Shown here piece by piece: positions 11,647 to 63,775 of a stretch of DNA of 64,000 nt. The notes below the pieces were generated by a model. It made no database searches. It was given only the letters and a program-made list of their open reading frames with translations, and had not been told where the DNA came from. Origin of the DNA: Pseudomonas fluorescens NCIMB 11764 (GTDB lineage: Bacteria; Pseudomonadota; Gammaproteobacteria; Pseudomonadales; Pseudomonadaceae); the NCBI RefSeq assembly GCF_000293885.2, contig NZ_CP010945.1, positions 1,054,001 to 1,118,000 of the forward strand, in the 5' to 3' direction. Numbering within the stretch: the first letter of the stretch is position 1; every line of letters begins with the position of its first letter. The position numbers and the translations under genes are program-made.

Positions 11647-13575
11647 ATGCACTCCAAAACCTCTAGGCGGACATTCGTGAAAGGCTTGGCCGCTGGTGGC
11701 ATTCTCGGCGGCCTTGGCCTTTGGCGCACTCCTGTATGGGCGGTGACAAGTCCTGGTATGCCGAGCGTACTCTCCGGTAACGAATTTGATCTGTTTATTG
11801 GTGAAAGCCCTGTAAACATCACAGGCTCGCCTCGCACAGCTATGACCATCAACGGATCATTGCCCGGACCGTTGCTGCGTTGGCGTGAGGGTGAGACCGT
11901 CACTCTGCGTGTAAAAAACCGTCTAGACCAAGACACATCAATCCATTGGCACGGGATCATCTTACCCGCCAACATGGACGGTGTGCCTGGCTTGAGCTTC
12001 CATGGCATCGCACCCGATGGCATGTACGAATACAAATTCAAGCTTCATCAGAACGGAACCTACTGGTATCACAGCCACTCGGGTTTGCAGGAGCAGGCAG
12101 GCGTTTACGGTCCAATCGTCATCGATTCGAAAGAACCTGAACCGTTTCAATACGATCGCGACTACGTGGTGATGTTGACTGACTGGACCGACGAAGATCC
12201 CAGCCACGTTATGGCGAAACTCAAGAAACAATCGGGCTATTACAACCATCACAAGCGCACCGTCGGAGACTTCATAGACGATGTCAGCAGCAAAGGTTGG
12301 TCTTCGACGGTAGCAGATCGAAAGATGTGGGCTGAGATGAACATGAGTCCTACTGACCTCGGCGATGTCAGCGCGGATACCTATACCTATCTCATGAATG
12401 GCCAGGCACCCAACGGTAACTGGACTGGTATTTTCAAACCGGGCGAGAAACTCCGTCTGCGCTTTATCAACGGCTCGGCCATGAGCTATTTCGACGTCCG
12501 CATTCCTGGGTTGAAGATGACCGTGGTTGCCGCAGACGGTCAACATGTCAAGCCGGTGAGCGTCGACGAGTTTCGTATTGCGGTAGCTGAAACATATGAC
12601 GTTATTGTGGAGACTGCTACTGATGAGGCGTACACCATCTTCGCTCAGTCTATGGATCGCACAGGTTACGCTAGCGGAACACTTGCAGTGCGTGACGGCC
12701 TAAAGGCACCGATACCTGCAATTGACCCACGTCCTATAGTAACTATGGATGACATGGGGATGGGCGGTATGGCTGGTATGGACCATGGCAGCTCGGGTGG
12801 AATGGGCGGCGGCGACATGGCCGGCATGGACCACAGCAAGATGGCAGGGATGAACCAAGGTGACATGACCGGGATGACCGGCATGGACAGCGGTGACATG
12901 ACTAACATGGCTGGTATGGATCACAGCAAGATGGCTGGCATGGACAAAGGCGACATGTCCAACATGGCTGGCATGGACCACAGCAAGATGGCAGGAATGG
13001 GCAGTGGTGATATGTCAGGGATGGCTGGCATGGGAGGTATGGGTGGAGGAATGCAGACTCACCCAGCCTCTGAAACCAACAATCCCTTGGTTGACATGCA
13101 AGCCATGAGTCCAACGCCAAAGCTGAACGATCCTGGCATAGGCTTGCGGAACAATGGTCGTCGAGTGCTCACTTACTCCGACTTGAAAAGCACTTTCCAA
13201 GATCCTGACGGCCGCGAGCCAAATCGCACCATCGAGCTTCACCTGACCGGTCACATGGAGAAGTTTTCGTGGTCGTTCAACGGCATCAAATTCTCTGACG
13301 CCGAACCACTGCGCCTGAAGTATGGCGAGCGTCTGCGCATCACCTTGGTGAACGACACCATGATGACCCACCCCATCCACCTTCACGGCATGTGGAGTGA
13401 CCTCGAGGATGAGAACGGCAAGTTCATGGTGCGCAAGCACACGATTGATATGCCACCAGGTACCAAACGCAGCTATCGAGTCACCGCTGATGCCTTAGGC
13501 CGCTGGGCATATCACTGCCACCTGCTTTTCCATATGGAAATGGGCATGTTCCGTGAAGTACGGGTTGATGAGTAA
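11647..13575 (+). CDS. copA: CopA multicopper oxidase
   Basis: A 642-aa periplasmic multicopper oxidase that oxidises Cu+ and binds copper. A twin-arginine signal (SRRTFVKG, residues 5-12) predicts folded export. All four copper-site motifs are present in order: HWHG, YWYHSHSG, HPIHLHGM and HCHLLFHMEMGM. Between the second and third cupredoxin domains is a long Met-rich insertion (about residues 375-475) built from repeats such as AGMDHSKMAGM, as in CopA/PcoA. It is followed 12 nt later by a small Met/His-rich gene, then copB, making a copA-x-copB operon. A cop box lies 140 bp upstream. Not to be confused with the copper ATPase, which is also often called CopA. Confidence 0.95.
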   Translation: MHSKTSRRTFVKGLAAGGILGGLGLWRTPVWAVTSPGMPSVLSGNEFDLFIGESPVNITGSPRTAMTINGSLPGPLLRWREGETVTLRVKNRLDQDTSIHWHGIILPANMDGVPGLSFHGIAPDGMYEYKFKLHQNGTYWYHSHSGLQEQAGVYGPIVIDSKEPEPFQYDRDYVVMLTDWTDEDPSHVMAKLKKQSGYYNHHKRTVGDFIDDVSSKGWSSTVADRKMWAEMNMSPTDLGDVSADTYTYLMNGQAPNGNWTGIFKPGEKLRLRFINGSAMSYFDVRIPGLKMTVVAADGQHVKPVSVDEFRIAVAETYDVIVETATDEAYTIFAQSMDRTGYASGTLAVRDGLKAPIPAIDPRPIVTMDDMGMGGMAGMDHGSSGGMGGGDMAGMDHSKMAGMNQGDMTGMTGMDSGDMTNMAGMDHSKMAGMDKGDMSNMAGMDHSKMAGMGSGDMSGMAGMGGMGGGMQTHPASETNNPLVDMQAMSPTPKLNDPGIGLRNNGRRVLTYSDLKSTFQDPDGREPNRTIELHLTGHMEKFSWSFNGIKFSDAEPLRLKYGERLRITLVNDTMMTHPIHLHGMWSDLEDENGKFMVRKHTIDMPPGTKRSYRVTADALGRWAYHCHLLFHMEMGMFREVRVDE

Positions 13576-13837: not shown

Positions 13838-14869
13838 ATGACCAGTAAGTTTTTACGCCCAACGCTGATGGCACTTGCAGTCTCCACCGGTCCAGCATTC
13901 TTTTTTATGGCTCAAGCCGCTGAAGAGATGGATCCGTCGATGGCGATGCCATCAAGTGCGGACGCAAAGCCATCAATTGCACAAAAATCCAAACCAGCCA
14001 AAGCGAAAGATGCCGCGATGGATCACTCCAAGATGGACCACGGCTCAATGGGAGCCATGGACCATAGCAAGATGGGGGCGATGGATCACAGCAAGATGAG
14101 CATGGATAACGGGCAAATGGACGGTATGGAAAGCATGGATGGAGGGGCGACTACCACAAGCCGAACCCCGATCCCCGTACTTACCGACGCTGACCGGGCC
14201 GCCGCTTTTCCAGACGTACCAGGCCATGGTGTGCACGATAAAAAAATTAACTCGTTCATCCTCCTGGATAAATTTGAGTACCAAGACGCTGACAACGGCA
14301 GTGCGCTGGCTTGGGATGCAAAAGGGTGGATCGGCGGTGACGTCGACCGCCTCTGGTTGCGTTCGGAAGGCGAACGTACAAATGGCGTAACCGAAAACGC
14401 TGAACTTCAGGCTCTGTGGGGACACGCCATCGGTCCATGGTGGGATGTCGTCACCGGTATTCGACAAGATTTCAAACCCGGGTCACCTCAAACCTGGGGA
14501 GCGCTCGGTATTCAGGGCATGGCCCTCTATAACTTTGAAGCTGAAGCGACTGCTTATATTGGTGAGAACGGTCAAACCGCTGCTCGATTTGAAGGCGATT
14601 ACGACATCCTGTTGACCAATCGCCTGATCTTGCAGCCGACCGCCGAAGTAAACTTGTACGGAAAAAATGATCCTCAGCGCGGCATAGGATCTGGATTGGC
14701 CAACACCGAACTAGGCCTGCGGTTGCGCTACGAAATTACTCGTCAATTCGCCCCCTACATTGGTGTTAGCTGGAATCGCTCATACGGTAAGACGGCTGAC
14801 CTGGCCAGCGATGATGGGGAAAAAACAAACGAGGCCCGATTTGTAGCTGGTATTCGGATGTGGTTCTAA
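13838..14869 (+). CDS. copB: CopB outer-membrane copper resistance protein
   Basis: A 343-aa CopB/PcoB-family outer-membrane beta-barrel. The start was set at 13838, where the signal peptide begins ([11 protein letters not shown]...). An upstream in-frame start at 13790 lies inside the previous gene. After the signal peptide (ending AQAAEEM) comes a Met/His-rich segment with repeated MDHSKM units (about residues 50-95). The conserved barrel domain follows from about residue 125 ([17 protein letters not shown]) to a terminal aromatic (RMWF), typical of an outer-membrane protein. It works with CopA in periplasmic copper handling. Confidence 0.92.
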
Positions 14870-26346: not shown

Positions 26347-26574
26347 GTGTTCCACAGTACACGTGAGCTCGACTATTAGAAATTTAACTTATTGGCGGAG
26401 TAGGCTGAATACGTCAGATAAGGCATTAGGGACCAACTCGAGCTCCTCATGAAGCACCCAAGATTTTTATTAAAGATACATCTCCTCTATATCATTGACA
26501 GCTGCTTGGACTGCTCCAGATGGATGAGTCGTTTGAGCGCAGTAAGATGAGACGAAGAACGTGTTAAAAAAGCC

Positions 26575-27837
26575 TCATGGGCTGAGAATATTAGGGGCTA
26601 CGTTGAGTACCGAAAACACCATCGCTAGGATAGCCTTTAACAGCCATAAGAAATCGTCCCAGTATTTTATCGCGGCTAGCAGCAAAGCACCGACGATTGG
26701 AAGCAGGGACAACCCCTTCAGCAACCGAAAGGTCCTGGTGAGGGTTCGGCCTTGCTTGTCGACTTGATCGATGGTGATCCTGAGCAGCCCCTGAAGTTTA
26801 GGGGGATATGTTTTTATCTTGTCCTTGAAATCATCGAAAATGACATTGAAGCTGTGTAGGAGGCGCTCCGTTTGCAGCATTTGGTTGTGAAGGATTGCAA
26901 GCAGAACCACAGAAACCACTGCCAACCCAAGGACAAGGATAAAACCTTCGAATCTTGAGGTTGTTTTCTCCAGCACGACCAAACCCGCTAGCGATATCGG
27001 CAGGGCGAGCATCTTGCCGGCGATGTCGCCCAGCACCCCGCTAAGCTTGGTGCCATAGTCGATTTCAGCTTGGGCCACCTCGCGCCGGGCCCGCTCAAAC
27101 GAGAAGCTATAGACGTAGGTTTGCAGATTCGCGCGGTATGTGGCGAGGACCTCCCGCCACTCCCGCACGATCACCAAGAACAGATTGGGCTCGCTCTCAA
27201 ACTTCTCTATGACGCTAGCCACCGCCATCCGAATCATTAATTTTCGTTCGGAGAGGTGTGCCTTATTTTCGTTTTTTCGATTGAGTATTTCTTCCAACAA
27301 GCTCAGGTGATTGAGCTCATAGTCAAGTACCTTGGCGTCAACCTGAGTAGGCAACAGAAATGTTCTCGGCGGCTTAGCCCCATCAGGAGGCAAGGCAAAG
27401 AAAAGATTAAAACCATCTTGGCTGCTGTCTTTGTCGACACCGATCGCTAGCAGTGCAAGCAGCTCGATCAACCGACATACGCGCCTGAGCGCCTTAATCG
27501 TCGGAGGTTCGGTGTCATCACTATCTGCCCAACAGAGCTCAACAATGTACACGTTGCTCGGAAATTGGCCCTTGCCCAATGAGCCATTGCGAGCGACAAA
27601 CTCGCCTAGGTTCGCGTAGAAACGGCCAGACTCGTTCGATGGCAAGCGAAACTCAATATCGAGAGAGTCTGCTTCTTCAGAGCAATGCTCGAACTTGCCA
27701 TAGGCTGCGGGCAGGCCATCGCACATTCGCAACGTACCGATAATGTCGGGCGTTGGCATCCCCTCATAGCGGATGACTCCGTCCTCAATGGGGGGCGCTC
27801 CAATGGCGCGGTAGAGAGCTACCACATTAGAAAACAT
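26575..27837 (-). CDS. 420-aa membrane protein of the NA37 module (copy 1)
   Basis: Not a family I can name. About 260 soluble residues (mixed, with SFSFERARREVAQAEIDYG, a probable coiled helix) precede two membrane helices around residues 287-330 (LALPISLAGLVVLE and FILVLGLAVVSVVLLAIL). A soluble segment follows (LLHSFNVIFDDFKDKIKTYP), then two further C-terminal helices (LSLLPIVGALLLAAIKYW and LWLLKAILAMVFSVL). Near-identical to 54483-55745 at equal length, so it is intact. Here its upstream partners are cut: the 80-aa gene is truncated and the NA37 gene is missing. Without its natural promoter it may be silent. Confidence 0.7.
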   Translation of the reverse strand: MFSNVVALYRAIGAPPIEDGVIRYEGMPTPDIIGTLRMCDGLPAAYGKFEHCSEEADSLDIEFRLPSNESGRFYANLGEFVARNGSLGKGQFPSNVYIVELCWADSDDTEPPTIKALRRVCRLIELLALLAIGVDKDSSQDGFNLFFALPPDGAKPPRTFLLPTQVDAKVLDYELNHLSLLEEILNRKNENKAHLSERKLMIRMAVASVIEKFESEPNLFLVIVREWREVLATYRANLQTYVYSFSFERARREVAQAEIDYGTKLSGVLGDIAGKMLALPISLAGLVVLEKTTSRFEGFILVLGLAVVSVVLLAILHNQMLQTERLLHSFNVIFDDFKDKIKTYPPKLQGLLRITIDQVDKQGRTLTRTFRLLKGLSLLPIVGALLLAAIKYWDDFLWLLKAILAMVFSVLNVAPNILSP

Positions 27838-27839
27838 TC

Positions 27840-28019
27840 TTAGCCGACCCTGGCCAGCAGTTCTTTCTCGATCACACCAACCAGTTCGGCAGTCAGATTG
27901 GACAGTGTCAAATTTTTCCGTCCCTCATCATAATAAACGTCTGCGGCCGGATCCTTACCTAACGCTCCACGCTCGAATTGCAACGACCAGTTAGCCGCGT
28001 CCCCCTTGATACGGGTCTT
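27840..28019 (-). pseudogene. Truncated copy of the 80-aa NA37-module protein
   Basis: Codes for the last 59 residues (from TRIKGDAANWSLQFERGALG to the end) of a protein intact at 55748-55990. The first 21 codons are replaced by DNA of the opposite-strand cadA gene. An 87-codon frame continues into that DNA up to 28103, but the added N-terminus is not related to the true protein. It is the product of the recombination that also beheaded cadA. Confidence 0.8.
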
Positions 28020-32189: not shown

Positions 32190-33890
32190 TTATTTCGGTG
32201 TTTTCATTGATTGACGCTCAAATGTCTGCGCGAGCTTTAACGGTGTTGACGCTTTGGACTGACAGGTACTGAACAGATCAAGCTCGGGGCGATATGATGT
32301 AGTTTGAATACCCATCAACCCCAATATAGAATGGAATAAGTTATCATGGGACAGTGATACTCCGCGTTGTTCCTTCAGGCATTGAGGATCTAGGTTTTGA
32401 CGCGACTGCATATCTTTGGAGATCCAGAGTACCATGGGGATACTAGTCTGCTCGCTGGGAGCCATGGCATAAGGAAGTCCATGCAAGTAAAGCCCATTCT
32501 CGCCGAGGGACTCACCGTGATCAGAGACATAAAGCATCGCCGTATCAAAACGTTCAGCGTTACGCTTTAGCAGGTCGATCGTTTGCCCAAGTACGTAGTC
32601 CGTATAACTGAGACTGTTATCATAGGCACTGACAATGCTTTCGCGCGTACAACGTTCGAGTTGGTTATTATTGCAAACGGGCCCGAATCGTTCGAACGCT
32701 GGTGGATAGCGTTTCGAGTAGGATGGGCCGTGACTGCCTTTCATGTGTAGCACCACGATTGAGTCCCGCTGCTGTTTATCCAAGTAGGCTTGTAAATCTT
32801 GCAATAAGACTTCGTCGTAACACTCGTCGGCTCTACATAATCCCAGCGTTTTTTGATTGTTCAATTTTTCATTTGGTACTCGGTCGCAAATGCCTTTGCA
32901 ACCCGAGTTATTGTCTCTCCAAAGGACCGATACTCCGGCCCGCTGCAAAACGTCTAATAGTCCTTCTCTACGCAGCGCCATACCGTCTTTGTAGCCTTCT
33001 TTACCCACATCCAGGAACATGCAGGGTAAGGAAACGGCCGTAGCTGTTCCACATGAGCTGACATTGGTAAAACTTAAGACGCCACGCCTGGCCAATTCCG
33101 GATTGGTATCCCGGGTATAGCCATTGAGGGAGAAGTTAGCGGACCTAGCGGTTTCACCCACCATAAGTACCGTTAGCCGTGGTTTGCGTACACCAGCAGT
33201 AGCTTCTTCACGGCGGGCATCAGCACCAATGGTTTTTAATTCGGTGGGAACTGCTAGCTGGCGACGCGTATACCCATGGATTGCCGAAACCACATTCGAC
33301 GGAACCAACATCAATCGGAGTTCGCGATGGTTACGCATCAGCGATGCATAGGATTGATAAAGCGTAAATACGATGACCGCCAAGCAGGTGAGCGCTACCG
33401 CCACACCCATCAATCGATGAGCAAGTGCGCGGGACCACGATCGTTGGATCAAACGGACTCGGGTAATAATCAACCCCGGTATAACACCAAAGCCCAGCAT
33501 CCACAGCAGTAGTTCCCAGTTCAGCAGGTCCGTGGCCTCGGACCTGTCCGTCTGCATCACATTCGTTAGCATGCTGTAATCAATTACTATGCCATAGCTA
33601 TTCATAAAGTAACTCGTTGCTGCCGCAACCAGCAGCACGATAGCTAACACAGGTTTTATCAAGCGTCCCCAGGCCATCACGCTGAGCAATACGTATAGCC
33701 AAATCAACACGAACCAAGGCAGGCTAAGCACGAATATGGTGTTTCCGTCCTGTAGGCCTCCCACGCCTTGCCAGACAGCTCGCCAAAATGGCCAGTTACT
33801 AAACAATAGAAGCCAGGTTGAAACTGCAAGAATTAACTGATTACTACCGAGGGTGATTTCCCAACTGCGAATTGGTACTTTGTTATTCAT
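32190..33890 (-). CDS. eptA: EptA/MCR-family phosphoethanolamine transferase
   Basis: A 566-aa inner-membrane enzyme that transfers phosphoethanolamine to lipid A. Five N-terminal helices (to about residue 180) precede a periplasmic sulfatase-like domain. Catalytic features: GETARSANFSLNGY with the metal-binding Glu, SCGTATAVSLPCMF with the nucleophilic Thr, several paired Cys (for example NNSGCKGICDRVP), and SDHGESLGENGLYLHG with metal-binding Asp/His. Full length. In Pseudomonas, eptA is induced by zinc through ColRS, which fits a zinc-resistance island. It could lower polymyxin susceptibility; this is family-level knowledge, not shown here. Confidence 0.9.
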   Translation of the reverse strand: MNNKVPIRSWEITLGSNQLILAVSTWLLLFSNWPFWRAVWQGVGGLQDGNTIFVLSLPWFVLIWLYVLLSVMAWGRLIKPVLAIVLLVAAATSYFMNSYGIVIDYSMLTNVMQTDRSEATDLLNWELLLWMLGFGVIPGLIITRVRLIQRSWSRALAHRLMGVAVALTCLAVIVFTLYQSYASLMRNHRELRLMLVPSNVVSAIHGYTRRQLAVPTELKTIGADARREEATAGVRKPRLTVLMVGETARSANFSLNGYTRDTNPELARRGVLSFTNVSSCGTATAVSLPCMFLDVGKEGYKDGMALRREGLLDVLQRAGVSVLWRDNNSGCKGICDRVPNEKLNNQKTLGLCRADECYDEVLLQDLQAYLDKQQRDSIVVLHMKGSHGPSYSKRYPPAFERFGPVCNNNQLERCTRESIVSAYDNSLSYTDYVLGQTIDLLKRNAERFDTAMLYVSDHGESLGENGLYLHGLPYAMAPSEQTSIPMVLWISKDMQSRQNLDPQCLKEQRGVSLSHDNLFHSILGLMGIQTTSYRPELDLFSTCQSKASTPLKLAQTFERQSMKTPK

Positions 33891-48250: not shown

Positions 48251-49650
48251 ATCGAGTAGGAGGCGGATTTACATCCGCCGTCCTCTCACACCACCGTACG
48301 TACGGATCCGTATACGGCGGTTCAAGCTATGCGGCTAAGCCGGTTTATCGTATCCAGTACCGAGACCAACCCAAGTTGATCCCATAGCTTCTTCGGCAGC
48401 GCCTGATTCATATGAGATGCTCCCGAGCTCCACCATGGGCCTCGGCCATTGAAGGCTGATTTGCAGGTGCGAGCTTCGCTAAGCCCCAGGCGCATCAAGT
48501 TACGTGCCCTCGTTGAGGGCCGCTTCCATTGACGCCAGACGACGCAGCGAAGTTTGCGTCGTACCCAGCCGTCAATTTCCTCAAGTGGCCGTTTGCTCTG
48601 ACTGAGCTTGAAATAGCCTGCCCACCCGCGCAGCACAGGGTTTATTCGTTCGATGACATTCGCCATCTTGTGGCCCCGCGCCCCGCGCAGCAGGTCTCTT
48701 AACCGGTCGTGCAAGCGACCCAGACTCATCGTCGCCACTCTCAGCCTCGGTTGCTGATGCCAGCTCATCCCATAACCCAGATAGTCGCAGACCCAAGGCC
48801 GTGCTACGTGGCTCTTTTCCCGGTTCAGCGTCAGTTTCAGGCGCTGATTCAGGAAACGCTCAACACCGGCCATCACCCGCGTGCCAGCTCGCTGACTGCG
48901 CACATAGATGTTCGCGTCGTCGGCATAACGCACGAAGCGATGGCCTCGCCGTTCCAGTTCGCGGTCGAGTTCGTTGAGCAGGATGTTCGACAGCAACGGC
49001 GAGAGCGGGCCGCCTTGATACGCACGCCTAAGGTTGGCCGGTACAAGCACCTGCTCCATCAGCGTGTCCGGCTCCGCGTTCGTCCACGTCACAGACGCCG
49101 CCGATACCTGTGCGCTGTCAGCCGTCATCCTCGGATACTGTCCGGGACTCGGAGTAACAGTCTTCTCTTGGAGAAATTTCTGCATTTCGGTATTCAACGA
49201 GACTTTGACGCCTACTGGCGGCATAACTTGTTCGGCCCTTGGTGACGGGTTTATTCGCCACTTACTACGGCCTCGGCTGACTTCTGCACGTTCATCCCGT
49301 CGCCTCTCGACGCTCGGTAGCACTGTGGCAAACGTGCAGATCTCCCAGGGTAATTCGCGCGACCTTCCTGCTTATGCCTGTCGGATCTACGTCGCAGCGT
49401 CCCGTGCAAGTATTGGGCTTTAGGGAAACACGCCCCTTTACCCCGCTGCGCCGCCTCTATCCGCTTGCTGTTCGTCAGGCCAGCATTTTGCCTCGGGCTT
49501 CCTTCAGATTCGCGGTCACCCGCGACACCCTTGCCTCTGGCTAACACTTCCCCTTGCCGGGTGTGTAGAGGACTTTCACCTCCAAGTCACCAGCGAGGCC
49601 ACACAGCCAAGCTGGTTGCGCTTGCGCGCAACGCGCCATGCCTGGCGCAC
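48251..49650 (-). mobile_element. Group II intron 1 (IIC-like), internally deleted
   Basis: Read leftward. The 5' end is GTGCGCCAGG at 49650. Domain V begins GAACCGCCGTATACGG at 48323, and domain VI (GGCGGATGTAAATCCGCC) is followed by CCTACTCGAT at 48251, the likely 3' end. Length 1,400 nt, about 430 nt short of its neighbour because its protein gene has lost its middle. It starts only 2 nt (GC) after the 3' end of intron 2, so the two are head-to-tail. The ribozyme parts look complete, so splicing or movement might be helped in trans by the intact protein next door. Confidence 0.75.
48322..49323 (-). pseudogene. ltrA: Group II intron reverse transcriptase with in-frame internal deletion
   Basis: A 333-codon open frame. 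The N-terminus ends normally at EQVLVPANLRRAY, then jumps directly to QGGPLSPLLSNILLNELDRE. In the intact protein at 49741 about 145 codons separate these points (RT motifs 0 to 4, including the first catalytic Asp). The YADD motif (FVRYADDANIYV) and the maturase/X region (LRGWAGYFKLSQS) remain. The frame is kept across the joint near 49015, so a shortened maturase-like protein without polymerase activity could be made. Its stop overlaps the start of domain V. Confidence 0.85.
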
Positions 49651-49652
49651 GC

Positions 49653-51483
49653 ATCGGCATAGGGGACGGCCTTCATAGGCCGCTCCCCTGCCACACCACC
49701 CGGCATGCGGGTCCGCACCGGGCGGTTCGAGAGATTGAGGTTATGAGAGGCGCGCCAATCCCAGCCTGTCGAACCACGCAATATTCAGCACACGATTCAA
49801 CTCAAAACGGCTATTACGCCACCAGCGATGAGAGTTACTGGCCACCCTCTGCGCCACCTGCTGGCTCGCCCCCAGTGTCCGCAGCTCTCGATAGATCGTA
49901 GGGCCACGCTTCCACTGCCTGAGCTGGATCGCTCTCAGTCGATGTCGTATCCATTCGTCCAGCTTGCGCCAGACTGCCGGTGTTTGCGACAACGTGAAGT
50001 AGGCTTTCCAGCCCAAAAGATAAGGCCGAAGATTATCTGCGACCTGTTGCAAGCTACGCCCGCAGGAGCGCCGGGTAAGCCAGCGGATACGCTGCTTGAA
50101 CTGTTTCTGCGCCTTATAAGAGACCGCGCGCTTGACTTCACTTCGGGCTGACCACAACTCATAGCCCAGAAACTTGCGACCAAACGCGCTCGTCACTGCA
50201 CTCTTGCTCTCGTTGACGCTCAAGTGCAGCTTTTCGTACAGCCGCCTCAGCAGGGCCATTACCCGCTGCCCCGCCTTCTGACTGCGCACATACACGTTCG
50301 CATCGTCGGCATAGCGCACGAAACAATGGCCTCGGCGTTCAAGCTCCCGATCCACTTCGTCCAGCAGCACGTTCGCCAACAACGGCGACAGTGGGCCGCC
50401 TTGCGGCGCCCCGCAGCGGCTTTTCTCGACCACGCCATTGATCAGCGTTCCCGCATCCAGATAGGCGCGAATCAGCCGGATAACCGCCTGATCCGTAATC
50501 CGTTTGCGCAAACGATCCATCAAGATGTCGTGATCGACCCGGTCGAAGAACTTCTCCAGATCAACATCCACCACCACTTTACGTCCTGAAGAGGCATAGC
50601 GCTGAGCCGCTAAAACGGCGTCCTGCGCACAGCGTCCCGGACGGAAGCCGTAGCTGTGTTCACTGAAGGTCGGATCGAGTAATGGCTGCAAGGCTTGCAG
50701 CAACGCTTGTTGGATCAAACGGTCGGTGACCGTTGGGATACCCAACTCGCGTTGACCGCCGTCAGGTTTGGGAATGACCACACGCCGTACCGGACTGGGC
50801 CGGTAGACTCCTGAAAGAAGCTGTTCACGAATCCCCGCCCATTGGGTCAGCAGGTACTCGGCCGTCTGATCAATATCCAGACCGTCGACTCCCGCTGCAC
50901 CTTTGTTGGCCTTGACCCGTTTCCACGCCCGTTTCAGGTTTTCTCTCGCAAAGGCCCGTTCCAGCAGCCCTTGTCCTGCGTTATCGGGTTCATTTTGCGG
51001 GCGATTGACCTCGTCGCTGACAGGATTTCTCACGGTTTCACCGCTCGTTATCTCCGTCCGCCCCGCGTTTGGCAGGCATCTGACTTCCGGTCTTTCGCAT
51101 CAACATGGCCTATGACGCTTTCTCTCGTTCGGCCCTTCGTCAAAAAAAAGACTACTACGGCCTCTGCTGACTTCTCGCTCCGACTCGCGCCGTCGCCCTT
51201 TCAGGCACAAGGCGAGATCTCCCCAGGTAAGAACGCAATCCTTCACCGCACAACCGCCGGATTTACGCTGCCTGACCCTTGACCACAAGAGCTTCGCGGT
51301 TTTATGCCCGCTCGCCCTGGTCGGCTTCGCCTTGTATCCGGTTCTTGTACATCGGCTCGCGGTTTCGATTCACGCTTCCTCCCCACACTCGGTCGCCCTC
51401 ATGCAGTTGCGCTTCACTTCGTTCGCTGTGGTCAGCTTACGGCGGGACTTTCACCCACAAGATTGCGCCCATGCTGGGCGCAC
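49653..51483 (-). mobile_element. Group II intron 2 (IIC-like), apparently intact, inserted behind a terminator
   Basis: Read leftward. 5' end GTGCGCCCAG at 51483, immediately after the T-run of the terminator at 51485-51512. That placement is the known target preference of class IIC introns. Domain V starts near 49731 (GAACCGCCCGGTGCGG); the domain VI stem pairs GGCC with GGCC around CTATGAA, and CCTATGCCGAT ends the intron at about 49653. Length about 1,831 nt. It encodes a full reverse transcriptase (49741-51033) and lies directly upstream of intron 1. Confidence 0.8.
49741..51033 (-). CDS. ltrA: Group II intron reverse transcriptase/maturase
   Basis: A 430-aa intron-encoded protein of full length. 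RT motifs in order: NKGAAGVDGLDIDQ, RRVVIPKPDGGQRELGIPTV, YGFRPGRCAQDAV, VVDVDLEKFFDRVDHD (first catalytic Asp), GAPQGGPLSPLLANVLLDEV, FVRYADDANVYV (catalytic Asp pair). The maturase X domain contains YLLGWKAYFTLSQT. No HNH endonuclease follows, as in IIC proteins. It promotes splicing of its intron and target-primed insertion. It could also act on the defective neighbour intron. Confidence 0.92.
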   Translation of the reverse strand: MRNPVSDEVNRPQNEPDNAGQGLLERAFARENLKRAWKRVKANKGAAGVDGLDIDQTAEYLLTQWAGIREQLLSGVYRPSPVRRVVIPKPDGGQRELGIPTVTDRLIQQALLQALQPLLDPTFSEHSYGFRPGRCAQDAVLAAQRYASSGRKVVVDVDLEKFFDRVDHDILMDRLRKRITDQAVIRLIRAYLDAGTLINGVVEKSRCGAPQGGPLSPLLANVLLDEVDRELERRGHCFVRYADDANVYVRSQKAGQRVMALLRRLYEKLHLSVNESKSAVTSAFGRKFLGYELWSARSEVKRAVSYKAQKQFKQRIRWLTRRSCGRSLQQVADNLRPYLLGWKAYFTLSQTPAVWRKLDEWIRHRLRAIQLRQWKRGPTIYRELRTLGASQQVAQRVASNSHRWWRNSRFELNRVLNIAWFDRLGLARLS

Positions 51484-54421: not shown

Positions 54422-54482
54422 CAGTTTGAACTTACTAATCCAATTTCACCTTAAAATTTTCCATAGAAATGAGGCAAAGCCT

Positions 54483-55745
54483 TTACGGGCTGAGAAAGTT
54501 CGGGACTACGTTGAGCGCGGAAAACACGACCGATAGGATGGTCATCAATAGCCATACGAAATCGTCCCAGTATTTTATCGAGGCCAGCAGCAAAGCCCCG
54601 ACGATTGGCAGCAAGGACAGCCCCTTCAGCAAGCGAAAGGTCCCAGTTAGCGTTCGGCCCTGCTTGTCGACCTGGTCGATGGTGATCCTGAGCAAGCCCT
54701 GAAGTTTTGGGGGATAGGTTTTTATCTTGTCCTTAAAATCATCGAAGATGACATTGAAACTGTGTAGCAGGCGCTCTGTTTGCAGCATTTGATTGTGCAA
54801 GATCGCAAGCAGAACCACAGAGACCACTGCCAGCCCAAGGACAAGAATAAAACCTTCGAATTTTGAGGTTGTTTTCTCCAGCACAACCAGACCCGCCAAC
54901 GATATCGGCAGGGCAAGCATCTTGCCCGCGATGTCGCCCAGTACCCCGCTAAGCTTAGTGCCATAGTCGATTTCAGCCTGGGCCACCTCGCGCCGGGCTC
55001 TCTCAAACGAGAAGCTATAGACGTAGGTTTGCAGATTCGCACGGTACGTGGCGAGGACCTCCCGCCACTCCCGCACGATCACCAAGAACAGATTCGGCTC
55101 GCTCTCAAACTTCTCGATGACGCTCGCCACCGCCATCCGAATCATCAATTTTCGTTCGGAGAGGTGCGCCTTGTTTTCGTTTTTTCGATTGAGTATTTCT
55201 TCCAACAAGCTCAGGTGGTTGAGCTCATAGTCAAGAACCTTGACGTCAACCTGGGTAGGCAACAGAAAAGTTCTCGGAGGCTTAGCCCCATCAGGAGGCA
55301 AGGCAAAAAACAGGTTATAACCATCTGGACTGCTGTCTTTGTCGACGCCGATCGCTAGCAGTGCAAGCAGCTCGATCAGCCGGCAGACGCGCCTGAGCGC
55401 CTTAATCGCCGAAGGTTCGGTGTCATCACTATCCGCCCAACTGAGCTCAACAATGTACACGTTACTCGGAAATTGGCCCTTGCCCAATGAGCCATTGCGA
55501 GCGACAAACTCGCCTAAGTTCGGGTAGAACCGGCCCGACTCGTTCGATGGCAAGCGAAACTCAATATCGAGAGAGTCAGCTTCTTCAGAGCAATGCTCGA
55601 ACTTGCCATAGGCTGCGGGCAGGTCATCACACATTCGCAACGCACCGATAATGTCGGGCGTTGGCCTCCCCTCATAGCGGATGACCCCATCCTCAATGGT
55701 GGGCGCTCCGAGGGCACGGTAGAGAGCTACCACATTGGAAAACAT
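54483..55745 (-). CDS. 420-aa membrane protein of the NA37 module (copy 2, intact operon)
   Basis: Same protein as at 26575 with a handful of changes. Soluble N-terminal part (about 1-260), then membrane helices around 287-305, 314-330, 375-393 and 398-417. Between the pairs lies a charged cytosolic or periplasmic loop (DFKDKIKTYPPKLQGLLRITIDQ). It starts 2 nt after the 80-aa gene, so it is third in a tightly packed operon NA37 - 80 aa - 420 aa. Such an arrangement (DNA-associated protein, small linker, membrane protein) is common in defence or conflict systems, where the membrane protein is the effector; that role is a hypothesis. No known toxin or enzyme motif was found. Confidence 0.72.
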   Translation of the reverse strand: MFSNVVALYRALGAPTIEDGVIRYEGRPTPDIIGALRMCDDLPAAYGKFEHCSEEADSLDIEFRLPSNESGRFYPNLGEFVARNGSLGKGQFPSNVYIVELSWADSDDTEPSAIKALRRVCRLIELLALLAIGVDKDSSPDGYNLFFALPPDGAKPPRTFLLPTQVDVKVLDYELNHLSLLEEILNRKNENKAHLSERKLMIRMAVASVIEKFESEPNLFLVIVREWREVLATYRANLQTYVYSFSFERARREVAQAEIDYGTKLSGVLGDIAGKMLALPISLAGLVVLEKTTSKFEGFILVLGLAVVSVVLLAILHNQMLQTERLLHSFNVIFDDFKDKIKTYPPKLQGLLRITIDQVDKQGRTLTGTFRLLKGLSLLPIVGALLLASIKYWDDFVWLLMTILSVVFSALNVVPNFLSP

Positions 55746-55927
55746 TTTTAGCCAGCCCTAGCCAGCAATTCTTTCTCGATCACACCAACCAGTTCGGCAG
55801 TCAGATTGGACAGGGTCAACTTCTTCCGCCCCTCATCATAGTAAACGTCTGCGGCCGGATCCTTACCTAACGCTCCACGCTCGAATTGCAACGACCAGTT
55901 AGCAGCGTCCCCCTTGATACGGGTCTT
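54483..55927 (-). repeat. Direct repeat, intact copy of the NA37-associated module
   Basis: Partner of 26575-28019, same orientation and length, offset 27,908 bp, with scattered base differences only. Here the sequence continues naturally to the right into the start of the 80-aa gene and the NA37 gene, so this copy is the parent form. Confidence 0.9.
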
Positions 55928-55990
55928 CTCTTTCAGCGATTTCGCATTGACCGTAAAGTCGTCCGGCACCTTATGTTTCTCACTATTCAA
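55748..55990 (-). CDS. 80-aa middle protein of the NA37 module
   Basis: Begins MNSEKHKVPDDFTVNAKSLK; its ATG overlaps the NA37 stop (ATGA), and the next gene follows after 2 nt. Contains TRIKGDAANWSLQFERGALG and DVYYDEGRKKLTLSNLTAEL, suggesting a small alpha/beta fold. No family recognised. The truncated twin at 27840 shows the protein is encoded only with the 420-aa gene here. Likely an adaptor or regulatory subunit by position. Confidence 0.65.
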   Translation of the reverse strand: MNSEKHKVPDDFTVNAKSLKEKTRIKGDAANWSLQFERGALGKDPAADVYYDEGRKKLTLSNLTAELVGVIEKELLARAG

Positions 55991-56880
55991 ATATCCTTCA
56001 ACCCAACGATTTCATCCACTAAGTCAGCGGGTACGTGTGCGACAGCGACGTGGCAGATGGCGTCCAGGCGCGCGGACTTGCCTGCGGCCAACTGCTCCTC
56101 CAGATATTTGATCACCGCCTCTTTGGCCTTATAACCAAAGCTTTTTAACGCTTTGTTGTCGCGAAAAAACCGGGCAATGTTATCAATGGCATTTTTGGTA
56201 GCGCGTCCGGAGGCCACTCCTTTCGCACAACCCAGTGCAGAAATGAAATAGTCAGATGCCTGACTATCACGGCCGCGGCTGATGAAGCACAGGTAGGTTG
56301 AATCCACTTCATCCTCCGCGTCATCCTCATTCTGCTCAGGCGCAGCAGCGGCCGCAGCAGCCATAGCCTTTATGGCCACGAAGCTAGCCAAGTTGATCCT
56401 GGCGGCCTGCTGAACCTTGTTGAGATCGACTTCTTGAATTTCCTTCGGCACATAGTTTTCGTCCAGCTGAATACCACCGCGCTCCTTCATGCTGGCGACC
56501 AGGAAAAAGTCGGTTGCGCCCGAGGTGTACTGGGCGCAAAGGATGTGTCCACCAGTCGACAAGACTTGATTACCGGCTTGCTCCACCAGTTGGTCCATTG
56601 CCAAGTGGGTCAAGTCGATAAATTGCGCTTTATCATCTTGTACTTCTACGAACGCGGTGAAGCGCTCTGGAAACGGCCCCTGACGGTCATCATTGGCAAA
56701 CTGTCCATAGACCACGCTGTTGCCTTCTTTGCCGATGAGGCCGTGGATGCCATTGACCAGAAAATGCAACGCAGGATTTTCAGTATCGAGCGCCACATCC
56801 TTCTTGACCACCTCGGAGATATAGCTGGTCTTGGCCAGCTTCTTGAAGCTGTGAATAATGGCAGTTTTCAGTGTGATCAT
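55987..56880 (-). CDS. NA37/YejK-like nucleoid-associated protein
   Basis: A 297-aa protein of the 37-kDa nucleoid-associated (NdpA/YejK) type, slightly shorter than the housekeeping form (about 335 aa). N-terminal IIHSFKKLAKTSYISEVV; then the typical HLAMDQLVEQAGNQVLSTGGH and GATDFFLVASMKERGGIQLD, and IQEVDLNKVQQAARIN. The C-terminal half has YLCFISRGRDSQASDYFISA and GCAKGVASGRATKNAI, both hallmarks of the family. An Ala-rich acidic linker (AAAAAPEQNEDDAEDEVD) is unusual. First gene of the three-gene module. Accessory-element NA37 proteins also occur on Pseudomonas integrative elements, so it may be a mobile-element housekeeping gene instead of a defence gene. Confidence 0.82.
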   Translation of the reverse strand: MITLKTAIIHSFKKLAKTSYISEVVKKDVALDTENPALHFLVNGIHGLIGKEGNSVVYGQFANDDRQGPFPERFTAFVEVQDDKAQFIDLTHLAMDQLVEQAGNQVLSTGGHILCAQYTSGATDFFLVASMKERGGIQLDENYVPKEIQEVDLNKVQQAARINLASFVAIKAMAAAAAAAPEQNEDDAEDEVDSTYLCFISRGRDSQASDYFISALGCAKGVASGRATKNAIDNIARFFRDNKALKSFGYKAKEAVIKYLEEQLAAGKSARLDAICHVAVAHVPADLVDEIVGLKDI

Positions 56881-58621: not shown

Positions 58622-60292
58622 CTAGAGCTTTGAATTGGACGCGATCATCTCCATGTATGCATTGCCACCCATGGGAATATCATAACCTGGTGGCCCTTCC
58701 CATTGCCGCGAGACGCCGGTATTTCTAAGCATAACTTCACCATCAATACCTTCCTTAACCATGTTGTCTAAATCCCACTCGAAGTGATTTATGAGAGCTT
58801 GGCAAGCCACATGAGGTACTGTAGTCAATAATTTTAAGCTGGAGCTGTTTGGGGGTAACTTAAGCCTCGCGATCTCCGACATCGTCCATATCATTCTCCG
58901 TAACCGGAAATGCCAAAGAGATTCTAGATGAAGCTCAAGTTGTTCTGACACCAACGGAAAAGACTTACGAGTCGCACGCTCCCTACTTACTTTTCGCGGC
59001 AAAAGTGCAAGCATGTTACCGATATTTACTCGAACCTGTTTTTGGGCGATGCGGTACAAATTCTCAACGCCTTCTTTAAGAATAGTTGCGTATTTTTCGT
59101 CCTCATCGCTCACCACCGACTCGACACTGTTCTTCTGCTTTACGTCCCTTGTAATTTCACTCAATAACCAGTCTTTATCGTTTTCGTTGAGCCAGCGTGT
59201 TACTTGATAAGCATTGACCCAAAGATAGTCCATACCAATACCTGGCTTAACCTCAAGTAGTATTGAGATTTTTTCTCGATAAGCCTTTTTTTTACTTTCT
59301 GGCAAAGCTTTCTCTTTTAGACGAACCGTCGGGTTTGCCGAGCTAGTAAGTAGAGACTCTTCTGCCAAGCATTTCTCAAATTTTTCTGCACTACCAAATA
59401 GATGTAGAGATATTAGAAGATGCCGCGCCAGCGGCATATCGATTTGACCTCTTGTTGTCGATAGCCGAATCCATTGACGTCGGATACCGGCTGCGTATGC
59501 TAGGTCAATTTTCGAAATAGTATCATCGCCAAACTTATCACGAATACTGCTAAATAATTTAGCAGTGCCAATCAGATTCCCATGAACAAACCCACGCTTC
59601 TTTGCTTGACGTCGATAACAGGCAGCCAAAATCTTATAATCCACCGATGGCAGATTGCGTTGCAGAATATCATTTACAAAAACTGCGTACTCTCGTTCTT
59701 CAGATGAGGCTAGTAAACGGTTCGCAGGTTTAATAGCGTTCCACCCACAAACACAATCTTCGGTTAAATTAGGTAATAACTTGTTTCTACGAAAGAAAGG
59801 GTGAGAACAATTCGGACAAGATTGAAGAAGTTCCTCGCCGTGCCGCCAGCAGGCCGTAACGCCCGGTACATGATGAGCTCGGTGCCAATATGCGTAACCT
59901 GACTCTATGATGTCGGCTTGCACACAGGCTAAGCAAATCTTTGCTCTGCTATTTTTAGTGCCCTCCCACCTAGGCACACGAGCAACATCTGACAAAACTC
60001 TGTCCCGTTCCTTAGATGGGTCTTTTGATAACCCTATAAAAGGCTTGTATGCAGGAAAATAAGTATTAATTTCAAGCAATTCATTAAAGTTGCTTTCTTT
60101 AACTCCAGGTAATCGAGACGCAAGATTCCCTAATTGCTTTGGTATAAACGAAAGTTGAAATGGGGCAACGTCAAAAAGATCACGAAACGTTTCTGCCTCG
60201 GTTTTGTTTCCGGACAAAAAATGGTACCTCGTAATACGAGATAACAGGGTCTCGTCGGGCATCGATATTGGAAAAAAAAGAATGCTGGACAT
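58622..60292 (-). CDS. tniQ: Second TniQ/TnsD-like targeting protein
   Basis: A 556-aa TniQ-domain protein; start at 60292 because the domain opens there (MSSILFFPISMPDETLLSRITRYH-type N-terminus). Zinc finger: CLACVQADI ... YWHRAHHVPGVTACWRHGEE ... CPNCSHP. The C-terminal part lacks close similarity to the neighbouring TniQ, as expected if it reads a different target DNA. Strikingly A+T-rich compared with tnsC and the first tniQ, suggesting a different origin. In Tn7-like elements TnsD recruits TnsC to an attachment site; two such genes imply two targeting routes. Confidence 0.82.
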   Translation of the reverse strand: MSSILFFPISMPDETLLSRITRYHFLSGNKTEAETFRDLFDVAPFQLSFIPKQLGNLASRLPGVKESNFNELLEINTYFPAYKPFIGLSKDPSKERDRVLSDVARVPRWEGTKNSRAKICLACVQADIIESGYAYWHRAHHVPGVTACWRHGEELLQSCPNCSHPFFRRNKLLPNLTEDCVCGWNAIKPANRLLASSEEREYAVFVNDILQRNLPSVDYKILAACYRRQAKKRGFVHGNLIGTAKLFSSIRDKFGDDTISKIDLAYAAGIRRQWIRLSTTRGQIDMPLARHLLISLHLFGSAEKFEKCLAEESLLTSSANPTVRLKEKALPESKKKAYREKISILLEVKPGIGMDYLWVNAYQVTRWLNENDKDWLLSEITRDVKQKNSVESVVSDEDEKYATILKEGVENLYRIAQKQVRVNIGNMLALLPRKVSRERATRKSFPLVSEQLELHLESLWHFRLRRMIWTMSEIARLKLPPNSSSLKLLTTVPHVACQALINHFEWDLDNMVKEGIDGEVMLRNTGVSRQWEGPPGYDIPMGGNAYMEMIASNSKL

Positions 60293-60565
60293 GATTAGCC
60301 GACTTTCTAGCGTGGGTTCAGGTAGGACGCAAGTCCTGTGAAGGAGTACTTTTATCACATATCACCCTGTACCCAGGCAAGGATTTTTATGAACGCAACA
60401 CAGTAGCTAACAGCCACCAACTACTACTTTAAAAAATCAGCCCATTTTTATTCGGTTTCACAATATAATACCGAACACATATAAATACCCTTCGTGTATT
60501 GCTTCGCCAAAACCTCACACAGGGAATCTACGCACTGCTCATTTACGGGGCTTCTGGCGACGGAG

Positions 60566-62290
60566 TTACAGAACAATATCCATACGAGAATCAGAATGCA
60601 GTCCCCCTGTGCGCGGTTTTCTGATACACGCTGTTCGATATATCGATGATTGAGTAATTGGTTTGCCGTCCAGTTTTAGCTTACGCTCTGCCCAGCTCAA
60701 ACGCCTCCTATGGAATGCATCCAGGGTTTCGCATTCGGCTGCTAGGGCAGCTGCACAGTGCGGCAGCTTGTTGAGCTGTTTTTCAAACCTAGACAACATA
60801 TGAAGCTCTCTGCCTATTTTTGTCCGTGAGATACGGACAGGTTTTCCTGGAAGCGTTCGTAACATTTCAGCGCATTGAACCACTTCGTTGGCAAGGTTAC
60901 GGTCGAGGTCTTTGAATCTTTCTGCCTGCTGTCCACATGGTCTGTGGGCTTTACCTAGCTCTTGTGTACGCTCGGACAGCCATTGCCGATCGTTTCGATG
61001 AAGCCACACATAATCTCGACACTCATGAGCTAGGCGAGCTATGTAGTCCCCCTCAAATCGATTCCTCCTATCACCCAGCTGTTTCGAAAGCCTCGCCTCT
61101 TTCCATCGGCCTGGTCCATCCGAAATCGTGCGTATCGCTCGGTAAACGCACGCAACCGAGCTCCCCGTTTCTGACGCTATGGTCTTCGCGTCAGCCCCCG
61201 AGAGTGCCCGCGTCCAGATCGCTTCAGATGCCTCACTCATATACTCATTGGCGCTTGCCCCATGGATTTGAGGTCCGTTGGCCGCGCTATCCCTAGAAGT
61301 TTCGGTATTGCCTGTTCGGTTAAGCGGCCCGGTAATAGGCCCGTTCTGCCGCAGTATCCTTTCCATGTCGACCTTCAGCGCGCAGGCCAGCAGGATAAAT
61401 TTCAGCGGATGATGGGTGCCCCTCGGCTTACGCAAAAGCTTCACAACCCAGGCCGCCGGTATATCCGCAGACGATTTGCTCAGTATCGAGTACTCCCCTA
61501 AGGAGGGGAGAGCCTCAAAGAACGCAGACATGTGCCGCGCCAATCTGCCTAAGTGCAGCCGACCAGTGTCGGAAGCCATTTCCAAGGCAATAGCGCTATC
61601 CAGAAACACCGATCGAATCGCATCAGGAGATAATGGAGGAACATCGGTCTCAAGCACCTGCATCGAACGCCGTGCTATTTCGTGCAGAGCACTTTGTAGA
61701 TTTTGAGGGATGTCTAACGAAATGGAGTGAGACTGAACGTCCTCATCGTCCGGCAAGTGCATTCTTCGAGAATTTCGGCTCAACCAGCGGTAATCAAGGA
61801 ACTTCAACGGGGTTCCATGGTGTGGACAGATCAAAACGCCTGGAAGCTGATGCACACGGTGCCAGTACGCTGCTCCCACACAGGCCATGTCCTGGTTGAT
61901 ACAGTCGAAGCACAATCGCACTCTCGAAGCGAACTCGAGTCGACTCGCGATTAACCCCAACCTTAGCATCAACCCCTCGCCATTTCCCGCCATCAAGGTA
62001 TTGGCGTCGTCCACTTGTTGCTGGGTCAAAAAAGGTTCGTAGTAGGGCAGCTGCGTATGGCGCTTTATAACCCCGGCTAGCGATAAGCCTGTGCCGCACG
62101 GCAGCGCCTCGGCAAGCTCAGCTAGTCGACATGGAAAAGCCACGTTCTGCGAGAAGAAGTTTGCGGACTGCGCTCCATCGAAAACTGCTCCGCAGCTACG
62201 TACGCCACAGAGCCGGGCGTATCTTGAAAGGACGCTGTGAAGCGTCTCATCGTGAAACACGGCCGGAAAGAAATGGAATTTGAGCCCCAT
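60566..62290 (-). CDS. tniQ: First TniQ/TnsD-like targeting protein
   Basis: A 574-aa TniQ-domain protein. N-terminus FHFFPAVFHDETLHSVLSRY; zinc finger RLCFDCINQDMACVGAAYWH ... LPGVLICPHHGTPL; a long C-terminal region with a helix-turn-helix-like stretch (TIASETGSSVACVYRAIRTI). Starts 15 bp after the tnsC stop in the same direction, so it is part of the core operon. Size and layout agree with TnsD-type target selectors. Which chromosomal site it reads is not visible. Confidence 0.85.
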   Translation of the reverse strand: MGLKFHFFPAVFHDETLHSVLSRYARLCGVRSCGAVFDGAQSANFFSQNVAFPCRLAELAEALPCGTGLSLAGVIKRHTQLPYYEPFLTQQQVDDANTLMAGNGEGLMLRLGLIASRLEFASRVRLCFDCINQDMACVGAAYWHRVHQLPGVLICPHHGTPLKFLDYRWLSRNSRRMHLPDDEDVQSHSISLDIPQNLQSALHEIARRSMQVLETDVPPLSPDAIRSVFLDSAIALEMASDTGRLHLGRLARHMSAFFEALPSLGEYSILSKSSADIPAAWVVKLLRKPRGTHHPLKFILLACALKVDMERILRQNGPITGPLNRTGNTETSRDSAANGPQIHGASANEYMSEASEAIWTRALSGADAKTIASETGSSVACVYRAIRTISDGPGRWKEARLSKQLGDRRNRFEGDYIARLAHECRDYVWLHRNDRQWLSERTQELGKAHRPCGQQAERFKDLDRNLANEVVQCAEMLRTLPGKPVRISRTKIGRELHMLSRFEKQLNKLPHCAAALAAECETLDAFHRRRLSWAERKLKLDGKPITQSSIYRTACIRKPRTGGLHSDSRMDIVL

Positions 62291-62305: not shown

Positions 62306-63775
62306 TCACCCCTTCCGATACAACGGAGAGAACTCAAATAGATCTCTGTTTATCCAACCGGCGCTCTTCAACGCCTCAATGGAGTCTTCACTTTCACTTA
62401 ACGCCTGTGCCTCTGACGTCTCAACCGCCACCGCCGAAGGAGGCTGCGATTTGAGTGGGTTAACGGGCGCCGCATTAGGCTTTGGGGCACTATTGTCGCT
62501 GCGACTGATGACACTGCGCAGCAACGCCAGTCGCTCCGGCCGAGCCAAACCATCGAACGCCATCATGTCGCTTAGTTGGTCTTCAATCGGAAGCAAATCG
62601 TCGAACTGCCGCATCCGTTTCGGATCTCGGCTTCGCAGGGCGGACAAAGCTGGCTTCAATATTTGCATCTTGGTGTTGCTCACCAACGCGATTGTCTCGG
62701 CGGTAACGCATTCCGAACCACTCTGGATCGCATACCTCTGACTGAGCACCAAAAGCTTCACCAAAAAGTCGGTGACGCCTTGTGTATGCTCATACAGCGC
62801 ATCAAACACTTCTTCGGTCAGTTCGACCGGCTGCTGGTACCACTGATAGCTCCAGAGGTTTTCAACGAGCATTCGCCACTCGTCATCGTCCTTCTCAAAG
62901 CGTTTAAATTCGAGTACCCCGACGCCGCAGCAACGCCGTGCGTTGCGCATGACGTCCGAAAATAGGCTAATCATCGAATTTGTCCCGATGAACACCACGG
63001 GAATGCCGATGTTGTTCACTAGATGGAGGAAGAAATTCAGCATGTTGTCCTTGCCCCCAGTTTTCGCCAGGTGCAGGTTCTGTAGTTCGTCGATCAACAG
63101 AGCGCCGATGAAAAATGTACTCGCAACCTGCTCCATTTGTTGCAACGAGTCATTGATGTTCCGAGCCCGATGCCGCTTGTAGTAATCCTCATCACCTAAC
63201 GCTCGCCCGACCGCATAGAAGAATTGCTGACAGAAGCCTGCCAGCGACCCATCTCGGGGGCAGTCAAGCTTGAGCCAGGTGATCTGGGTATGAACGAACT
63301 GCTTTCCTTCATAACGCTCGTGTCGGATCGTTTGAGGGTAGAGACTCAAAATGGCTTCGAGGGCGGTGGACTTCCCAATGCCACTAAGGCCAACCAGACT
63401 GAACGTTTCGGCAGTGGACTTGAATCCATCGTGGTAGCGCTGTGCACCCGAAAGCGAGTGTAGATGTCTGACAGTGTCTGGAGAAGTCGGGTTGCGTCCG
63501 ACGTACCCTCGTCGGACCAGCAATGAAAATACGGACTCCAGATCCATGTGGACAATCAGAGGCTGAACCACCGTCCTCAACCGGTCGATACAGTGGATCC
63601 GAGTCGAACGGTCAAGGGCGAGCTCTTCTGGATCAACAGGACGGGGAAAATTCGAGATCAGTTGGATTGCTACCTCTTCTGAGAAGATAGGTGGCAGCGC
63701 TTCGATGAGCGGATTTCCCGCGTAGTCCGCTATCGCCTGCTTGGTGTAGCTTGCGAAAACTTGGGCGCCTTTCAT
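62306..63775 (-). CDS. tnsC: TnsC-like AAA+ transposition regulator
   Basis: A 489-aa ATPase that links target selection to the transposase. Walker A GLSGIGKSTALEAIL (about residue 128), Walker B FIGALLIDELQNLH (about 223), sensor segment IPVVFIGTNSM, and an arginine-rich follow-up (RNARRCCGVG). The longer N- and C-terminal arms fit TnsC of Tn7-like elements better than the shorter TniB. Its ATG overlaps the tnsB stop as TAATG, so the two are coupled. Confidence 0.9.
   Translation of the reverse strand: MKGAQVFASYTKQAIADYAGNPLIEALPPIFSEEVAIQLISNFPRPVDPEELALDRSTRIHCIDRLRTVVQPLIVHMDLESVFSLLVRRGYVGRNPTSPDTVRHLHSLSGAQRYHDGFKSTAETFSLVGLSGIGKSTALEAILSLYPQTIRHERYEGKQFVHTQITWLKLDCPRDGSLAGFCQQFFYAVGRALGDEDYYKRHRARNINDSLQQMEQVASTFFIGALLIDELQNLHLAKTGGKDNMLNFFLHLVNNIGIPVVFIGTNSMISLFSDVMRNARRCCGVGVLEFKRFEKDDDEWRMLVENLWSYQWYQQPVELTEEVFDALYEHTQGVTDFLVKLLVLSQRYAIQSGSECVTAETIALVSNTKMQILKPALSALRSRDPKRMRQFDDLLPIEDQLSDMMAFDGLARPERLALLRSVISRSDNSAPKPNAAPVNPLKSQPPSAVAVETSEAQALSESEDSIEALKSAGWINRDLFEFSPLYRKG

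Follow-up and report, generated by a model that had tools for sequence, protein, structure and literature searches.

A pair of genes on the minus strand of Pseudomonas fluorescens NCIMB 11764, at positions 54,483 to 56,880 of a 64,000-nucleotide (nt) stretch of its genome (the window), appears from its sequence to be a damaged and divergent anti-phage cassette of a kind that has only recently come into print. The first gene encodes a NA37 (YejK-type) nucleoid-associated protein whose reading frame is broken, the second a membrane protein, and both match NCBIfam families named for DS-1. The explanation as a whole, a damaged copy of a two-gene DS-1-type anti-phage cassette with a mechanism resembling that of RexAB, is given a probability of about 0.55, a value in which a well-supported identity is weighed against an uncertain mechanism. 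It is the family, widespread yet hardly studied, that merits attention, and not this copy by itself. The locus holds three open reading frames (ORFs; lengths in amino acids, aa):

55987..56880, minus strand: predicted N-terminal piece of NA37 (YejK-type), 297-aa ORF, matching PF04245 and NF053868 (DS1_1_antiphage)
55748..55990, minus strand: predicted C-terminal piece of NA37, 80-aa ORF in another frame with a TTG start, assigned by its PF04245 match and the frame of relatives
54483..55745, minus strand: DS1_2-like membrane protein, 420 aa, predicted from its NF053869 match, hydropathy and an AlphaFold2 model

Gene structure and state of the copy

How many genes are present? The first-pass annotation described a three-gene module, with an ATGA overlap between the first two genes, a gap of 2 nt between the second and third, and a small 80-aa adaptor as a gene of its own. 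The three ORFs had been placed correctly, as had the 2-nt gap; the junction of the first two reads TTGA, since the 80-aa ORF begins with a TTG that overlaps the TGA stop of the 297-aa ORF. The gene count has to be revised. The Pfam profile PF04245 is divided over the first two ORFs, with positions 1-245 on the 297-aa ORF (112 bits) and positions 263-323 of 325 on the 80-aa ORF (E 5.4e-8, 33 bits), both above the gathering score of 24.6 bits. Residues 1-296 of the 297-aa ORF align with intact NA37 relatives of about 377 aa, and the break point is spanned by a single frame (tblastn) in all 17 named relatives that hold the region (loci L003-L018 and L022), including L008, which is interrupted at a different point. 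Most NA37 relatives found (103 of 114) are single chains with a length of 358-427 aa; the other 11 measure 163-322 aa. Because the profile is divided over both ORFs, relatives have one frame and most of their proteins are single full-length chains, the three ORFs are best read as two genes, a NA37 gene with a broken frame and a membrane-protein gene; the supposed adaptor is the tail of the broken NA37.

The splitting of NA37 makes the activity of this copy doubtful. Probably the locus is in decay and no longer has a function, a judgement that concerns this copy and not the family. NA37 is broken here and mostly missing in a second copy within the window, and the frame break is private to the window among the relatives named above. 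Damage is also common in the genus: a sample of 20 genomes holds 24 copies, of which 16 have both frames open and eight are damaged (two in the source genome, G000, three in G030 and one each in G049, G087 and G241). The open class includes G175 and G296, whose loci have short flanks and whose NA37 ORFs were called at 318 and 313 aa, respectively. Such frequent breakage may point to a cost of carriage. A remnant fits less well with the position of the break, which maps between helices 294-299 and 313-318 in the model of an intact relative, close to where the last small domain begins, or with the start of the 80-aa ORF, which overlaps the preceding stop and follows an AAGGA, so that two chains could still be made. 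In addition, four of eight relatives do not differ from the 80-aa piece in any amino acid, as would also be the case after a recent break, and the frame break may be a sequencing error. Intact NA37 copies are present in many relatives, and intact copies from environmental Pseudomonas are available for testing.

The ratios of nonsynonymous to synonymous change (dN/dS) between the window and eight relatives are 0.03-0.20 for the N-terminal piece of NA37, 0-0.15 for the C-terminal piece and, for the membrane gene, 0.06-0.22; the two window copies of that gene compare at 0.081. These values indicate that the proteins were under purifying selection, and a recent break would leave no trace in them.

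A genuine system of three genes, with NA37 deliberately made as two chains, is favoured by the TTGA overlap with AAGGA ahead of it and by a split near a modelled domain boundary, but it is very improbable given that no other locus examined has a two-chain NA37 and that the database relatives are overwhelmingly single chains. A programmed frameshift behind the three ORFs was likewise put low, being common to no relative examined.

Kinship with DS-1 and constancy of the pair

The 297-aa ORF matches NF053868 (DS1_1_antiphage, "nucleoid-associated anti-phage protein") at 71.7 bits (E 5.3e-20; equivalog cut-off 330 bits), and the 420-aa protein matches NF053869 (DS1_2_antiphage, "anti-phage protein") at 75.5 bits (E 4.1e-21; cut-off 315 bits). 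The membrane protein of the second copy scores 72.3 bits against the latter family, and the relatives tested from phages, plasmids and E. coli prophages also match both. The likeness to DS-1 extends to layout: the same two genes stand in the same order, NA37 and then the membrane protein, as they do in L075-L077, three loci over the DS1_2 cut-off.

The DefensePredictor study (Science 2026) names the YejK nucleoid-associated domain among those whose part in defence it newly validated in E. coli; of 94 cloned units, 42 protected (PMC13092281). No mechanism for the YejK-domain system is given in the portion of that text examined. The NCBIfam DS1 label probably refers to this system. The first pass had taken the module for a candidate undescribed system, which is partly right: a YejK-domain system validated against phage in E. 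coli is already in print, and what stands of the claim is the divergence of the branch. The membrane protein is about 23% identical to those of L075-L077, and an intact relative of the window NA37 is 25-26% identical to their NA37. No other defence pair of NA37/YejK and a membrane protein was recognised in the literature searched, a coverage outside which most subscription papers and preprints lie.

Is the window NA37 simply the housekeeping YejK (NdpA)? The source genome carries a full-length YejK of housekeeping type as a separate gene (G000 C1:6826588-6827547), which is only 21.7% identical to the intact relative of the window NA37. Against the housekeeping family NF001557 the window NA37 scores 88.3 bits, below the cut-off of 341 bits. 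At least one NA37 gene is present in each of the 13 Pseudomonas genomes of the relatives sample. In a tree of NA37 proteins, 19 housekeeping rows cluster with one long-branched partner of a DS1_2-like protein (L056) and the remaining partners lie outside; row L112, labelled as housekeeping, is the partner from G007, and the label test hence gives three changes, not one. As a positive control for the Kiwa comparison described below, profile comparison of the NA37 partners with housekeeping YejK gave a probability of 100% (E 8.3e-58), and the modelled intact relative matches the YejK structure 9be2.

The two genes do not occur mostly apart. Of 86 DS1_2-like ORFs, 73 are preceded on their own strand by a NA37 ORF at a distance of no more than 400 nt, a redundant count in which several loci repeat one genome. 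The 13 unpaired ORFs are the second window copy (three times), nine fragments and one piece at a contig edge. Where the gap is wide, in six of the 73 pairs, a broken gene is the cause (the window copy three times, L008, L026 and L050; L008 and L026 seem to be one strain counted twice), and in 29 pairs the genes overlap by 1-56 nt under longest-ORF calling. The pair is present in all 15 loci fetched from a viral-contig collection, which is viral by construction. Distances between proteins correlate across the partners, with r 0.982 for 52 pairs and 0.91 for 35 pairs (none of 2000 permutations as high), and the median pairwise identity among 35 diverse pairs is about 17-20%. Conservation of the NA37-membrane pair extends well past the members that score above the NCBIfam cut-off.

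The membrane protein is soluble over roughly its first 250 aa, a part with a mixed alpha/beta fold in the AlphaFold2 model (pLDDT 86.9). Three to four membrane helices follow, with hydrophobic stretches, predicted by hydropathy, near residues 272-290, 298-316 and 372-390, with a further one at 396-414 in some proteins. Residues D271, I272, A273, G274, K275, L277 and P280 (motif DIAGK..LALP) are invariant in 63 aligned sequences, and P280 is kept in all 35 diverse sequences. The best-conserved part lies at the predicted point of entry of the chain into the membrane. Since conservation peaks at this point, a membrane effector seems preferable to a mere anchor. The membrane gene is interrupted in L005 and L022.

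Carriers, neighbourhoods and the second copy

The distribution of the pair is rare, patchy and mobile. A profile built from 63 sequences matches 20 of 298 Pseudomonas genomes, and NF053869 finds matches in 10 of the 398 genomes sampled from the phylum and in 26 of 295 genomes of the family of G664, three of them over the cut-off. In E. coli, 39 of 5,426 genomes match the cassette of a Klebsiella phage at the DNA level, and a second cassette has matches in 40 of the 5,426. The window protein has matches in 5 of 72,556 plasmid records and 3 of 50,697 phage records; a search that started from the Klebsiella phage protein found five phage records.

In three E. coli prophage regions of lambdoid type the pair is inverted and lies directly beside antiterminator Q, which also adjoins it in Klebsiella phage P7641 and in the viral contig L122. 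A fourth E. coli region is a P2-like prophage in which the ogr-like gene and the D gene flank a helix-turn-helix gene, DUF6037, NA37 and the membrane-protein gene. In L131 and L132 the first substantial gene upstream, on the same strand, encodes a CI-like repressor; in L129 such a repressor lies upstream on the same strand with short ORFs in between, and in L127 it converges from the opposite side. These positions in phages and prophages are typical of lysogenic conversion genes, in several phages those of superinfection-exclusion genes, and support a role in defence at the level of the family. On plasmids, a "nucleoid-associated protein" gene stands directly upstream in the three records examined of five, and in the window's own group the pair adjoins Tn7-like transposition genes. 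The pair moves with prophages, plasmids and Tn7-like elements. DUF6037 immediately precedes the pair in the P2-like prophage (L074:6519-9522), whereas on plasmid pXWY (L063:3631-8921) it lies further upstream, a few genes away; the two DUF6037 genes are 42% identical, and none of the other loci collected has one.

Might the pair serve the elements that carry it? NA37 would then regulate transfer or silencing in the manner of NdpA2 from the integrative and conjugative element PAPI-1, with the membrane protein assisting. NdpA2 reportedly counters MvaT and stimulates transfer (PMC9927451), two Pseudomonas phages carry NdpA/YejK (PMC10305613), and the pair itself is found on plasmids and on a Tn7-like element. 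However, there is no common transfer backbone among lambdoid and P2-like prophages, plasmids, Tn7-like elements and other loci, so that the pair is far from confined to the backbones of integrative elements, and its constant partner is a membrane protein that matches an anti-phage family. Such a service to the mobile element is very improbable.

The second, partial copy some 28 kb from the first, already noticed in the first pass, consists of a full 420-aa ORF and a fragment of the NA37 tail:

26575..27837, minus strand: 420-aa membrane protein of the second copy, 95% identical to that of the first
27843..28019, minus strand: all that is left of the second NA37 gene, a tail remnant equivalent to residues 22-80 of the 80-aa piece

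The copies form direct repeats (54476-55927 and 26569-28019; 1452 bp at 91.9%), and their membrane genes differ at 105 positions. The second membrane gene is identical, letter for letter over 1263 bp, to that of the P. rhodesiae locus L009. OprD porins, 69% identical to each other in DNA, lie downstream of both copies; that of the second is 88-99% identical to module-adjacent OprD in L004, L006, L007, L009, L010, L011 and L022, whereas that of the first is 99% identical to OprD in L003 and L005. The identity with L009 and the differing affinities of OprD suggest that the two copies derive from two related element lineages, and not from one recent duplication in place. The second copy runs on into a P-type ATPase frame (PF00122, 28006-29781). 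This frame begins inside the copy and abuts its end at about 28019, and its 5' end looks replaced.

Tn7-like neighbours, identified with Pfam, lie outside the module:

58622-60358, minus strand: TniQ/TnsD-like
60566-62290, minus strand: TniQ/TnsD-like
62306-63775, minus strand: TniB-like AAA ATPase

TniQ/TnsD homologues adjoin the module in L004, L006, L011 and L022 too. Elsewhere in the window, two distinct group II intron reverse transcriptase/maturase genes stand close together (48322-49323 and 49741-51033); the first (333 aa) looks incomplete, matching the later part of the reverse transcriptase profile only. An EptA/EptB-type phosphoethanolamine transferase (32190-33890) lies between metal-efflux genes and a second element remnant, and degenerate ATGG-rich repeats occur in two large ORFs (12767-13033 and 14046-14117), the protein being rich in Met-Gly/Met-Asp-His.

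Proposed mechanism and comparison with known systems

By analogy with RexAB, NA37 would sit on DNA and recognise a feature of infecting or replicating phage DNA. It would then contact the soluble part of the membrane protein and activate it, and the conserved membrane-entering helix (DIAGK-LALP) would harm the membrane or the energy state of the cell, leading to aborted infection. The assignment of NA37 as putative sensor and of the membrane protein as putative effector follows from this analogy. Defence is supported for the family, and for this branch and copy it may be extended by analogy. Through the DS1 matches, the near-strict pairing and the phage positions, the earlier idea that the module serves conflict or defence and acts at the membrane gains support for the family; for this damaged copy it is doubtful. 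For a defence system reported in 2026 the proposal offers a testable mechanism, a DNA-bound sensor with a membrane effector.

Several points weigh against this reading. Both DS1 scores are far under the equivalog cut-offs, and "DS-1" does not appear as a separate word in the available main text of PMC13092281, which makes its equation with the YejK system one of deduction. The co-evolution signal is expected of any jointly inherited genes, touching or not. Both window copies are damaged, and kinship with RexA, RexB, KwaA or KwaB is not established. Finally, the neighbours of relatives are no richer in PADLOC matches than a random control, with 37 families each at E 1e-6. This comparison set 55 chosen flanking ORFs (L012-L018, L061 and L063; none from L062) against 71 ORFs from seven arbitrary Pseudomonas stretches, the ORF floors differing slightly (130 aa in the control). 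Among the matches listed (25 of 37 per set), the kinds were PDC-S06, PDC-S73, PDC-S60 and Hp2 in the test and GajB and mad3 in the control. Enrichment of defence islands was set aside, the count not being discriminating.

Which known system does the pair resemble most? The Rex-like mechanism, at a little under even odds, is ranked first because of the positions beside cI and Q and the conserved membrane-entry helix. A Kiwa-like capture, which is possible and less likely, would make the membrane protein both sensor and anchor at the injection site; NA37, as effector, would coat incoming phage DNA and block both its replication and its transcription without killing the cell. It is also tentatively proposed that YejK-type nucleoid proteins may have been turned into specialised sensors of phage DNA that act through a single family of membrane effectors, with DS-1 as one branch of a large mobile superfamily of prophages, plasmids and transposons; the pair would be a Rex-like conversion operon built of unrelated parts, with a possible deep kinship between the NA37 and KwaB folds.

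In Kiwa, the membrane protein KwaA senses infection and the DNA-binding KwaB blocks phage DNA (PMC12904381). The pair likewise joins a membrane protein to a DNA-binding protein, in the opposite gene order, KwaA being first in Kiwa. Profile comparison for kinship with Kiwa was negative, no better than with reversed sequences, structure comparison yielded a weak row only, and none of the window proteins matched a PADLOC family at E 10, in a set whose content of Kiwa models is unchecked. In RexAB, DNA-binding RexA senses and the membrane protein RexB stops growth, and a RexAB-type pair of P. putida joins a DNA-binding protein to a membrane effector (PMC12894663). The parts of RexAB differ in size from those of the pair, and no CI-like repressor stands beside it in the window or in the Q-adjacent prophages. 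The likeness is one of layout, not of sequence comparison: two prophage-borne genes encode a DNA-binding and a membrane protein, and three viral contigs (L129, L131 and L132) have a CI-like repressor upstream.
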